Below are positions 38,896-43,138 of a DNA stretch of 64,000 bases, piece after piece; the stretch's first letter is position 1, and each line of letters starts with the position of its first letter. Origin of the DNA: Haloarcula marina. Lineage in GTDB: Archaea > Halobacteriota > Halobacteria > Halobacteriales > Haloarculaceae. The DNA lies in contig NZ_CP100404.1 of NCBI RefSeq assembly GCF_024218775.1, positions 1,426,001 through 1,490,000 of the forward strand, read 5' to 3'. Under the pieces are notes generated by a model. The model worked only from the letters and a program-made list of their open reading frames with translations, searched no databases and was not told the origin of the DNA. The position numbers were made by a program, and so were the translations under genes.

Positions 38896-39855
38896 ATGGA
38901 AAGGCCGACGCGCCAGCGGGATACGGACCAACAGGAGCGTGAGCAGGAGTCCGAGGATACAGGCCAGCAGACCTGTCCCGAGTGTGAGTCGGAGAACATA
39001 TCCAGTGACGGCGGCGGGGAACTCGTCTGCGAGGACTGTGGCCTCGTGATCGAAGACGAGAACATCGACCGCGGGCCGGAGTGGCGTGCCTTCAACCACT
39101 CGGAGCGTCAGTCGAAGTCGCGCGTCGGAGCGCCGACGACCCAGACGATGCACGATAAGGGGCTGACGACCCAAATCGACTGGAAAGACAAAGACGCCTA
39201 CGGCCGTTCACTGTCCTCCGAGAAACGCTCGCAGATGCACCGACTTCGGAAGTGGCAGGAGCGAATCCGGACGAAAGACGCCGGTGAGCGAAACCTCCAG
39301 TTCGCGCTCTCGGAGATTGACCGCATGGCTTCCGCGCTGGGTGTCCCGCGCTCGGTCAGGGAAGTCGCTTCGGTCATCTACCGGCGCGCGCTCAACGAGG
39401 ACCTCATCCGCGGCCGCTCCATCGAGGGCGTCGCGACGGCGTGTCTGTACGCCGCCTGTCGGCAGGAAGGAATTCCCCGCAGTCTGGAAGAGGTGTCCGA
39501 CGTGTCCCGGGTCGAACAGAAGGAAATCGGGCGGACCTACCGCTACGTCGCACAGGAACTCGAACTGAAGATGGAACCGGTCGACCCCAAGCAGTACGTC
39601 CCCCGGTTCGCCTCGGAACTGGAACTCTCTGAGGAGGTCCAGTCGAAGGCCAACGAGATTATCGACACCACTGCCGAACAGGGCCTGCTCTCCGGCAAGT
39701 CCCCGACTGGGTACGCCGCCGCCGCCATCTACGCGGCGTCGCTCCTCTGCAACGAGAAGAAGACCCAGCGCGAAGTCGCCGACGTGGCGCAGGTGACGGA
39801 AGTCACCATCCGGAACCGGTATCAGGAACAGATCGAAGCGATGGGCATCCACTGA
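38896..39855 (+). CDS. tfb: Transcription initiation factor TFB
   Basis: A 319-aa TFIIB homologue that joins TBP and RNA polymerase at promoters. The zinc ribbon has C27, C30, C45 and C48; the B-reader region follows; two cyclin repeats occupy about residues 130-225 and 225-319 (the second ends [20 protein letters not shown]). Haloarchaea carry several TFB paralogues with different promoter sets; this one looks complete and canonical. Confidence 0.96.
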
Positions 39856-40027
39856 CTGCCCGCGAATCCCGCCAGCGCCCCATTTTTGCGACTGCCGTCC
39901 GACGCCGCTCAGCGACCGGTAAGTTCGTCGCCGGTCGCCACCTCGTCCCGCGAGACCCGTATTGGCGGCCGGTTCGACCCACCAAAACAGTGAACTGTTC
40001 CCGCGGCCGAGGATACGCGTATCGCGA

Positions 40028-41419
40028 ATGCCGCCGGAGACAGACGACTCGACAGACCCCAGTTCGCTCGTCGCGGACGTGCTGACGGGGTCTGAAGTGG
40101 ACACGGACCGGGTTCCCACGTTGTTGGGTTTCCTCGACGTGGGGGACCGGCAGGTCCGTCTCGGGTCGGCGGCGGCCCTCTGCGTGGTCGCCGACGAGCA
40201 TCCCGACATCGTCGGATATCTCGCCGGGCGACTCGCCGACCGGGCCGACGGGGAAACCGGCCTCGCGGCGGCCCTCGCACTCGACTACCTCGCCGCCCTC
40301 GACCCGGACACCGTCGCGGACGAACTCGAAGGTGACGACGCGCGACCGACGTACGGCGTCGAGCGGTCCGCGCCGACCCGTGAGGGGCAGTCGAACCGCG
40401 ATATCGGCCGGACGCGCCTCGCGGGGACGGGGTCGGACTACGGCCCCCGGCAGGTGTACACCGACGACGGTGAGGAGAACGGGGACAGTGACGCGGGAGG
40501 TGGGGGTGGGGAGGACAGCGATTCGGACGCGGGCCGGACCATCGGCCAGCGGCCGCCGGCCAACGACGCCGAGTGGTTCTCGCTGGTGACCTACGAGAGT
40601 CGCTTCGACGACTTCACTATCCTGTCGCCGCGGGACCGCGGGCGGTACGGCGACTCCTACCGCACGCTCGGGATGGCCGACGACGAGGAGTACGCGGTGT
40701 CGTTACGTCTGCTTCGCAGCGACGCGGCCTCGTCGTTCGTCGAGGCGCTCCGGTCACAGCTACGGACGTGGACCTCTGTCAGCGACGCCGAGAACGTCGT
40801 GTCGGTGTACGACTGGAACACGGCCCCCCTGCCGTGGCTCGCCGCAGAGTACGCCGACGAGACGCTCGCCGAGCGGTCCCGGTTCCCGCCGCCCGAGGCC
40901 GCGTGGCAGGCCGAGCAACTGGCGAGCGCACTCGCGACACTGCACGAACGCGGGGTCGTCCACGCGGGCATCGACGCGCAGGCCGTCGCCTACTACGGGA
41001 ACGTCCTCACCGAGGACGACCGTCAGCCCCCGATGCTCGACAGCGTCGGTCTCCTGCACGTCTACCGGCAGTACGCCGACCCGTCGAACTTCCTCGACCC
41101 GCGGTACGCGGCCCCAGAGTATTACGAACGGCGCTTCGGCCGCATTGACCACGCGACGGACATCTACCAGTTGGGTGCCGTCTGCTACCGACTGTTCACG
41201 GGCCGACCACCCTACACGGGGTCGTTCGCGGCGGTCCGCGACGCCGTCATCGACGGTCCGCCGCCGACGCCCAGCGACGTGGCCGACGTGCCGACGGCCG
41301 TCGACGACATCGTCGGGAAAGCGATGGCGACGCAGAAACTCAGACGCTACGAGACGGCCGCACACGTAGCGCAAGAGCTACGTGCGCTCCGGGAACCACA
41401 GGAGAACGATGCAAAGTAG
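40028..41419 (+). CDS. HEAT-like repeat protein with a C-terminal pseudokinase domain
   Basis: A 463-aa protein. Residues about 25-105 are Ala/Leu-rich helical repeats like HEAT; a Gly/Asp/Ser-rich linker (about 150-180) follows; residues about 185-455 have a Ser/Thr kinase fold. Kinase landmarks kept: YAAPE (362-364) and DIYQLGAVCYRLFTGRPPY. Landmarks lost: HRD is HAG (312-314), the loop Lys and Asn are replaced, DFG is SVG (339-341), and VAIK reads VSLR. It should not be an active kinase; it may be a scaffold. The ORF overlaps the next membrane protein by 11 nt. ATG 40028 chosen. Confidence 0.75.
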   Translation: MPPETDDSTDPSSLVADVLTGSEVDTDRVPTLLGFLDVGDRQVRLGSAAALCVVADEHPDIVGYLAGRLADRADGETGLAAALALDYLAALDPDTVADELEGDDARPTYGVERSAPTREGQSNRDIGRTRLAGTGSDYGPRQVYTDDGEENGDSDAGGGGGEDSDSDAGRTIGQRPPANDAEWFSLVTYESRFDDFTILSPRDRGRYGDSYRTLGMADDEEYAVSLRLLRSDAASSFVEALRSQLRTWTSVSDAENVVSVYDWNTAPLPWLAAEYADETLAERSRFPPPEAAWQAEQLASALATLHERGVVHAGIDAQAVAYYGNVLTEDDRQPPMLDSVGLLHVYRQYADPSNFLDPRYAAPEYYERRFGRIDHATDIYQLGAVCYRLFTGRPPYTGSFAAVRDAVIDGPPPTPSDVADVPTAVDDIVGKAMATQKLRRYETAAHVAQELRALREPQENDAK

Positions 41420-42137
41420 CGTCTCCGTCGGGTTGCCGTTCGCGCCGAACAACCCGAATCTGACGTTCATCTTCTTCATCGCATTGACGCTGCTCATCGT
41501 CTTGGGCCTCCGATTCACGTTCTACGCGTACCTGAATCGGCGGGCGAGTGACCTCGTGGCCGAACACCGTCTGTGGGACTACCTCGCCGTCGTCGGCCTC
41601 CTCGCCGTCGGGTTCGCCGTCCTCGGACTGGTCGAAATCCTGACCACGTTCGTCCTGCCGTTCAAGAGCGCGCTGTTGCTCGCGACGGTGTTCTTACTCG
41701 CGGTGACGATGCGGGTGCTGTACCGGAGCGTCGTCCCCGCGACGAGCGACGGAAGCGGCCGGACCGAACGAGTCCTCTCCCGGGCGGCCGTCGTCGCCGT
41801 TGTCGTCGTCTTCCTCGGGATGGCGTCGGTCGGCCGTCACCCCCTACTCGTGGCGGTGATGGGCGGAAGCGCGCTCACCTTCGCCGTCGCCGGGTTCTCG
41901 TTCGGCCGCCGCGGGGCCGCCGAGACGCGCGTCCAGGGGACGGTAATCGACACGCTTCTCCGACATCTCCTCCCGGTGTTGCTGTTCGCGGCGATGGTTC
42001 CGGCCGTCGACCTCGCGGTGCTGGTCGGACTGGACCGCGTCGTCGTCCTCCACACGCAGGTCGTCTTCGTCATCATGACCGCGACGACGCTGATGACCGC
42101 GACGATAAAACTCCGGCAGAATCTCGCCAGTCTCTGA
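41409..42137 (+). CDS. Polytopic membrane protein coupled to the pseudokinase
   Basis: A 242-aa protein with about seven hydrophobic helices: LTFIFFIALTLLIVLGL near residue 18, YLAVVGLLAVGFAVLGLVE, ALLLATVFLLAVTM, AAVVAVVVVFLGMA, LLVAVMGGSALTFAVAG and two near the C-terminus. Start ATG 41409 lies inside the pseudokinase gene. The family is unknown to me. Tight overlap makes a functional pair likely. Loops contain few charged motifs that would suggest a transporter type. Confidence 0.65.
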   Translation: MQSSVSVGLPFAPNNPNLTFIFFIALTLLIVLGLRFTFYAYLNRRASDLVAEHRLWDYLAVVGLLAVGFAVLGLVEILTTFVLPFKSALLLATVFLLAVTMRVLYRSVVPATSDGSGRTERVLSRAAVVAVVVVFLGMASVGRHPLLVAVMGGSALTFAVAGFSFGRRGAAETRVQGTVIDTLLRHLLPVLLFAAMVPAVDLAVLVGLDRVVVLHTQVVFVIMTATTLMTATIKLRQNLASL

Positions 42138-42181
42138 CCCGCCCCCTATCCTTTTTGCTCGTCGGGGGCCTCGGGGTCCGT

Positions 42182-43138
42182 ATGCGCGCTGTCAGATTTC
42201 ACGAGCACGGCGGTCCCGAGGTTCTCACAGTCGAAGACGTTCCGATGCCGACGCCCGAGGGGGACGAAGTACTGGTCGAGGTGGCGGCCGCCGGAGTCAA
42301 CCCGGTGGACACCTACTTCCGCGACGGGGCGTACGACCCGGGTGAACTGCCGTGGATTCCGGGGTCGGACTGCGCCGGGACCGTCGCCGAAATCGGCGAT
42401 GCCGTCGAGGGCTACGCCGAGGGTGACCGCGTGTTCGCGACGGGTCTCGGGAACTGGTTGCAGGGGACCTGTGCGGAGTACGCCATCGTCCCCGAATCCC
42501 ACCTCGCACATTTGCCCGACGCCGTCGATTTCGAGACGGGCGCGGCCGTCGCCCTCGTCGGCGTCACGGCGTGGCAGACGCTCGTCGACGCCTGTTCGCT
42601 CGAACTGGCCGAACGCGCCCTGATTCACGGCGGGAGCGGCGGCGTCGGCCACGTCGCGGTCCAACTCGCGGACGCCGCCGGTGCGCGCGTCACGACGACG
42701 GCGTCCCCGCAGTACCACGACCGACTGAGCAAACTCGGGGCCGACGACGTGTTCGACTACCGCCGCGAGGACATCGCAGACGCCGTTACCGAGGCGGGCG
42801 CGCCCGACGTTATTCTCGACCACCGACTCGACGACTACCTCTCGTTCGACACCGACGTGGCCGCACAGAGCGCGCGCATCGCCGCCATCGGCAACTCGGA
42901 CCTCGCGGCCACGTTCGAGAACGTCCCGCAGTGCCGAGCGAAAGACCTCACCGTCCACCACGTCTCGATGTTCAACACGCCGGAGTTCGGGGCCGTCCTC
43001 GACCGCCTCGCGACGCTGATGGCCGACGACGCGCTCACTGGGGTCGTCGCCGACACCTACGCCCTCGACGAGGTGGCCGACGCCCACGTCGACGTTCTCG
43101 AAGAGAGCTTCCTCGGCAAACTCGTCGTCACGCCCTGA
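42182..43138 (+). CDS. NADPH:quinone reductase-like alcohol dehydrogenase superfamily protein
   Basis: A 318-aa MDR protein. The N-terminal GroES-like domain starts MRAVRFHEHGGPEVL; no zinc-ligand cysteines of classical alcohol dehydrogenases are present, as in quinone reductases. The cofactor motif is HGGSGGVGHVAVQLA, typical of NADPH-dependent quinone oxidoreductases. TATA word near 42149-42157 is about 25-33 nt upstream. Confidence 0.88.
   Translation: MRAVRFHEHGGPEVLTVEDVPMPTPEGDEVLVEVAAAGVNPVDTYFRDGAYDPGELPWIPGSDCAGTVAEIGDAVEGYAEGDRVFATGLGNWLQGTCAEYAIVPESHLAHLPDAVDFETGAAVALVGVTAWQTLVDACSLELAERALIHGGSGGVGHVAVQLADAAGARVTTTASPQYHDRLSKLGADDVFDYRREDIADAVTEAGAPDVILDHRLDDYLSFDTDVAAQSARIAAIGNSDLAATFENVPQCRAKDLTVHHVSMFNTPEFGAVLDRLATLMADDALTGVVADTYALDEVADAHVDVLEESFLGKLVVTP

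Follow-up and report, generated by a model that had tools for sequence, protein, structure and literature searches.

What might a kinase fold without its catalytic residues do beside a membrane protein? Pseudokinases have been described chiefly in eukaryotes and, more recently, in bacteria. In the 64,000-nucleotide stretch of Haloarcula marina DNA analysed here (the window), a gene for a 463-residue kinase-like protein runs into the gene for a 242-residue membrane protein. The coordinates and reading frames confirm that the two genes overlap by 11 nt (41409-41419), as a sequence-only reading of this locus had claimed. Since the overlap is of a kind typical for co-translated genes, the two proteins are probably made together, as that reading also held. 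The pair comprises the following parts.

40028..41419, + strand: pseudokinase gene (HEAT-like arm, linker and kinase fold), 463 aa; from Pfam, sequence search, model, Foldseek and alignment
40058..40333, + strand: HEAT-like arm, residues 11-102, six helices; from the high-pLDDT model, with HEAT_2 in 20 of 49 relatives
40334..40564, + strand: disordered linker, residues ~103-179, partly acidic; pLDDT <50 at residues 106-170
40397..40426, + strand: short linker motif RDIGRTRLAG, residues 124-133; conserved in the alignment
40565..41413, + strand: pseudokinase domain, residues 180-462; Pfam Pkinase match at 204-398, model and Foldseek
40697..40708, + strand: VSLR in place of VAIK; residue 227 is R and the ATP-binding lysine is lost (alignment)
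40961..40969, + strand: HAG in place of HRD; residue 314 is G and the catalytic Asp is lost (alignment)
41042..41050, + strand: SVG in place of DFG; residue 339 is S and the metal-binding Asp is lost (alignment)
41409..42137, + strand: seven-helix membrane protein gene, 242 aa, no known family; from the model and the lack of a family match
41409..41419, + strand: 11-nt overlap of the pseudokinase and membrane protein genes; from ORF coordinates and frames

A kinase fold with family-wide loss of catalytic residues

The 463-residue protein exceeds the curated cut-off of the Pfam Pkinase family, PF00069 (E = 3.4e-11; 43.5 bits against a cut-off of 31.7), which places its kinase similarity well beyond chance and, together with the fold, makes it a member of that family. 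It matches Mycobacterium tuberculosis PknB with E = 2.7e-12 by sequence, and E falls to about 1e-41 when the family profile is used. The alignment-based model has a mean pLDDT of 84.5 (this and the membrane protein model are of single chains). Six helices make up its N-terminal part (residues 11-102), residues 106-170 are disordered, and the kinase fold runs from about residue 180 to 462. In Foldseek the model matches PknB with E = 3.3e-13 and PknF with a target-normalised TM of about 0.78, and the nearest solved relatives are PknB-type bacterial kinases. The sequence-only reading, which depended on a retained kinase fold, thus finds that fold predicted by the model. The six helices also agree with the HEAT-like N-terminal part that it described; Pfam HEAT_2 is detected in 20 of the 49 relatives, and the window's own protein falls below the threshold.

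To follow the catalytic residues across the family, we aligned 67 members together with the next best matches, 25 further kinases from the class. Where an active Hanks-type kinase has the VAIK Lys, the HRD Asp and the DFG Asp, the window protein has R227, G314 and S339, and all three triad residues are likewise gone in 41 of the 67 members. The catalytic Asp is kept in none of the 67 (54 have Gly, 9 have Ala, and the remainder C, S or T), the ATP lysine is absent in 60 and kept in seven, and the DFG Asp is absent in 44 and kept in 23. APE and DxYxLG are retained. Among the 25 haloarchaeal kinases closest to the family, 18 have the full Lys/Asp/Asp triad, along with the alpha-C glutamate, which is mostly missing in the pseudokinase family. 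The losses read from the single sequence (VSLR, HAG and SVG, with the structural motifs kept) therefore hold for the family, and active homologues with HRD and DFG intact, which would have told against that reading, did not appear among its members.

In the kinase-domain tree a single branch (SH-aLRT 92) parts the family from all other kinases, so the catalytic Asp was most simply lost in one old event. Ratios of dN/dS are 0.08-0.28 for the kinase gene (13 close pairs) and 0.11-0.25 for the membrane gene (12 close pairs), which indicates that both are under purifying selection. With a kinase fold, lost motifs conserved over relatives and purifying selection, the protein is a pseudokinase by the motif-loss definition. 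At the level of sequence and model, the kinase fold, the catalytic inactivity (as judged by motif loss) and the gene pairing are well supported.

The kinase and membrane genes are kept together over five families

The membrane protein has a match at E ≤ 0.001 in 65 of 292 genomes of the class. Besides the window, 54 fetched loci carry a same-strand kinase-family gene directly upstream of the membrane gene, and by our own count these paired loci cover about 17 genera and five families within one order; genes in relatives were called with a simple codon-usage caller plus tblastn, and the genome samples were drawn evenly and are incomplete. The two genes usually overlap, 4, 11 and 8 nt being the most frequent lengths. 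The outer flanks differ between genera while the two genes remain together, and no third operon gene conserved across families was found in the fetched loci. One genus has a glycosyltransferase-like gene and ABC-transporter genes downstream of the pair.

In eight fetched loci the membrane gene lacks a directly upstream kinase gene; L125, a solo-kinase locus, is not counted among them. Five of these (L121, L123, L124, L126 and L127) are from a distant subfamily whose neighbouring genes differ, and one (L114) is a fragmentary match. In L085 the membrane gene is present and the adjacent kinase gene absent, and in L090 (genome G024) the best kinase match lies about 92 kb away on the same contig. 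Across 247 genomes sampled from the phylum, the membrane family was not found outside the order. The co-occurrence of the pair across haloarchaeal genomes, which the sequence-only reading had proposed as a test, is thus positive; the linkage is conserved but not universal, as solo pseudokinase paralogues exist, one of them in the same genome.

Distant members of the membrane family without a kinase neighbour (L121, L123, L124, L126 and L207-L211) have surroundings of their own. In one genus the gene sits before a trypsin/HtrA-like gene, and in another it sits after a gene that by eye resembles a copper nitrite reductase.

A seven-helix membrane protein without recognisable opsin similarity

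The model of the 242-residue protein has seven long helices (mean pLDDT 90.6), as expected of the polytopic seven-helix protein originally described. No Pfam or NCBIfam family matched it above cut-off. CrgA was rejected as its identity (E = 0.031, below cut-off and absent in relatives). The charges of the loops and their distribution fit an N-out/C-in topology, so the orientation looks N-out/C-in; under this topology 29 of the 40 best-conserved positions lie on the cytosolic side, and this conserved side is polar.

Rhodopsins and GPCRs top the Foldseek list for this model, only with E of about 0.01 and TM of 0.5-0.6. The profile comparison is negative: hhalign against sensory rhodopsin II (SRII) gave a probability of 1.6, and the Pfam search gave no match to Bac_rhodopsin (PF01036). 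Moreover, the core of helix 7 has no Lys, the retinal lysine, in 51 of 52 aligned members. With the negative profile comparison and the missing retinal lysine, we do not class the protein as an opsin. A 7TM histidine-kinase sensor domain was rejected too, as hhalign against eight HisKA_7TM (PF16927) domains of the same genome gave a probability of 1.0. Unrelated membrane-protein controls were likewise negative in these comparisons.

Solo paralogues point to a partner-facing side

Some pseudokinases of the family have no adjoining membrane partner. These solo paralogues are nested among paired proteins in the tree, which indicates that they arose later than the paired ones. The window genome itself has a second, solo HEAT-pseudokinase (L125:7510-8910; G000:C1:307581-308882), which follows genes for a MATE-like transporter and a TetR-like protein.

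For the window's taxonomic family, we took the positions that are conserved among paired proteins and followed their fate in the solo group. Depending on the threshold, 6 of 18 to 12 of 29 conserved HEAT positions are lost, but only 4 of 74 to 7 of 94 conserved kinase positions (Fisher p of 0.003 to 6e-5; the solo proteins form nearly one clade, so these p values overstate independence and the contrast may be clade drift). A basic linker motif (RD-x-GRTR / GRVRxPG), seen only in the window's taxonomic family, is kept in most of that family's paired members and lost in the solo paralogues. Because HEAT and linker positions are lost in the solo proteins while the kinase core is kept, the HEAT arm and linker likely serve the membrane partner, and we read the kinase fold as having a function of its own beyond that partner. 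The docking surface that had been assigned to the HEAT part and an acidic linker is therefore likely in its HEAT and linker portion; its acidic stretch is unconserved, and a basic motif is conserved instead.

The site has a shared history with sensory rhodopsin II

In sixteen sampled loci of the window's taxonomic family the fetched surroundings include SRII and its transducer HtrII, which lie upstream of the pair and divergent from it. In close relatives, among them Haloarcula pellucida and Halomicroarcula rubra, the series runs HtrII (divergent), kinase gene, membrane gene and oxidoreductase gene. The window site is flanked by a TFB gene (38896-39855) and a quinone oxidoreductase gene (ATG at ~42182), and in 13 of 14 same-genus genomes without the pair a rhodopsin-transducer bicistron lies between the TFB and quinone oxidoreductase genes. 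Bac_rhodopsin matches map to the bicistron sites in same-genus genomes without the pair, and the same bicistron in other loci has Bac_rhodopsin plus HAMP/MCP/Htr2 matches (Pfam). No Bac_rhodopsin (PF01036) gene was detected in the window genome, nor a rhodopsin gene in other pair-bearing genomes (e.g. G138, G264, G003 and G012). The right-hand neighbour (cluster 4) is retained about as often as SRII.

Most likely, an ancestor carried both SRII-HtrII and the pseudokinase pair, and a reciprocal loss followed: the rhodopsin pair disappeared from the window lineage, and the kinase pair from 13 sister genomes. Two neighbouring modules would thus have been lost reciprocally at one site (window 38896-43138; loci L171-L183 and L193-L202). 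Given the pair-bearing genomes without a rhodopsin and the reciprocal losses, SRII-HtrII and the kinase pair are separable, not interdependent; an obligate link between them is ruled out on these grounds.

A candidate membrane complex and its alternatives

We give about an even chance to the reading that the pair forms one membrane complex, in which the docked, dead kinase fold is the allosteric scaffold of a sensor/scaffold unit. The seven-helix protein would sit in the membrane with its N-terminus out and its C-terminus in, its conserved polar side facing the cytosol. The pseudokinase would dock on that side through its N-terminal HEAT arm and linker, and the dead kinase fold, as an allosteric scaffold, would recruit or regulate another cytosolic protein, so that the two proteins would operate as a sensor/scaffold unit at the membrane. 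The computed fold, the family-wide residue loss, the purifying selection, the conserved gene pair and the topology signal are what we observe; from them we infer the physical complex, the docking through HEAT arm and linker, and the signalling output. Counting against a single complex are the solo pseudokinases and the L085 membrane gene without an adjacent kinase gene. We identified no ligand-binding domain or downstream partner for the pair. More tentatively, the pair could represent an undescribed class of archaeal receptor, an N-out/C-in seven-helix non-opsin that signals through a dedicated HEAT-repeat pseudokinase rather than through a histidine kinase or chemotaxis transducer; we consider this possible, if doubtful.

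The pseudokinase might instead be an assembly, stability or gating subunit of a transporter or channel, with no signalling role. The tight, overlapping genes in conserved order, a HEAT arm that could serve as a docking element, and a membrane protein that belongs to no known family and whose conserved cytosolic side is polar all suit such a subunit, but the top Foldseek matches are seven-helix receptors and rhodopsins rather than transporters (weak, at E of about 0.01, and not decisive), and the kinase core is constrained in solo paralogues, which implies a role beyond the membrane partner. On balance we hold a subunit of this kind to be unlikely, though it deserves serious consideration. A membrane-anchored enzyme with a non-canonical activity on the kinase fold, as in some other pseudokinases, is improbable: although the DFG Asp persists in 23 of 67 members and the ATP lysine in seven, the triad is wholly missing in the window protein and 41 of the 67, and the alpha-C glutamate is mostly lost.

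An accessory role in SRII phototaxis would account for SRII-HtrII near the pair in 16 same-family loci and for HtrII in the close named relatives. Yet no rhodopsin gene is detectable in the window genome or in other genomes that bear the pair, and SRII-HtrII persists in 13 same-genus genomes that lack the pair. Since the cluster 4 neighbour is about equally retained, plain shared synteny explains the proximity; we think this role quite improbable. As for the kinase gene being a decaying relic, every catalytic motif is lost in the window protein and the distribution is patchy (65 of the 292 genomes of the class match the membrane protein at E ≤ 0.001), but dN/dS is far below 1 for both genes, the motif state is common to the whole family, and adjacency is conserved over five families. 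The dN/dS values rule out decay, and we assign the relic a negligible chance.

This is an old, selected archaeal pseudokinase family whose genetics hint at its partner, and the seven-helix membrane family that comes with it is uncatalogued. Natural controls are at hand in the solo paralogues without the likely partner side, sister species with a single module, and active sister kinases, and roles other than catalysis for the archaeal kinase fold can be tested directly in tractable haloarchaea.

Comparison with known systems

The best sequence and structure matches, the bacterial Hanks-type Ser/Thr kinases of the PknB/PknF/StkP group, share the kinase fold; they are active and keep their catalytic residues, whereas the window protein has lost all three motifs and carries an additional HEAT arm. 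The nearest relatives in the same class are haloarchaeal kinases with an HLD or HHD loop and DWG, which have the landmarks W248, W270 and APE/DxYxLG in common with the pseudokinases but keep the Lys/Asp/Asp triad and fall on the other side of the tree. This sister group (L145-L158 and L162; HLD/HHD/HFD loop and DWG where HRD and DFG would stand) includes many large proteins, and several genomes carry at least five kinase-like genes. The window genome also has a canonical Hanks-type kinase (L139:6366-7598; G000:C1 near 2246851), in which YRDLKPEN and DFN are intact and the C-terminal region, by eye, resembles an FHA domain. It is a first candidate for the cytosolic protein on which the pair would act.

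Bacterial pseudokinase families have recently been catalogued, among them the membrane recruiters MviN and EssB/YukC (PMC12599244). That review describes the mycobacterial MviN pseudokinase (ActPs3) as a recruiting platform that works with a polytopic membrane protein (PMC12599244), and in this it resembles the haloarchaeal pair. However, MviN is a fused, actinobacterial protein with different domains, whereas in the haloarchaeal system the two proteins are separately encoded, the pseudokinase bears a HEAT arm and the membrane protein is unrelated; the membrane partner has no MviN/MurJ family match in Pfam, and the pseudokinase is not of the MviN type. EssB/YukC of type VII secretion is a membrane-associated scaffold pseudokinase with all three motifs degraded (PMC12599244). 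Its scaffold role at the membrane and its degraded motifs resemble what we describe, but EssB/YukC is part of a secretion system and brings a transmembrane segment of its own, and no such genes lie at the haloarchaeal pair. Haloarchaeal opsin-related proteins (ORPs) lack the retinal lysine and have been suggested to be sensors (PMC4915679). Like the membrane partner they are haloarchaeal and have seven helices without that lysine, but ORPs are recognisable opsins, many of them beside HAMP/MCP transducers, whereas the membrane partner has no opsin profile similarity and a pseudokinase as its neighbour.

A literature search that drew mainly on openly available papers, and lightly on subscription ones, found no archaeal pair of pseudokinase and membrane protein and no described system with this architecture, in line with the sequence-only reading. 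The membrane-linked pseudokinase is thus a known kind; its architecture, its domain of life and its partner are new.
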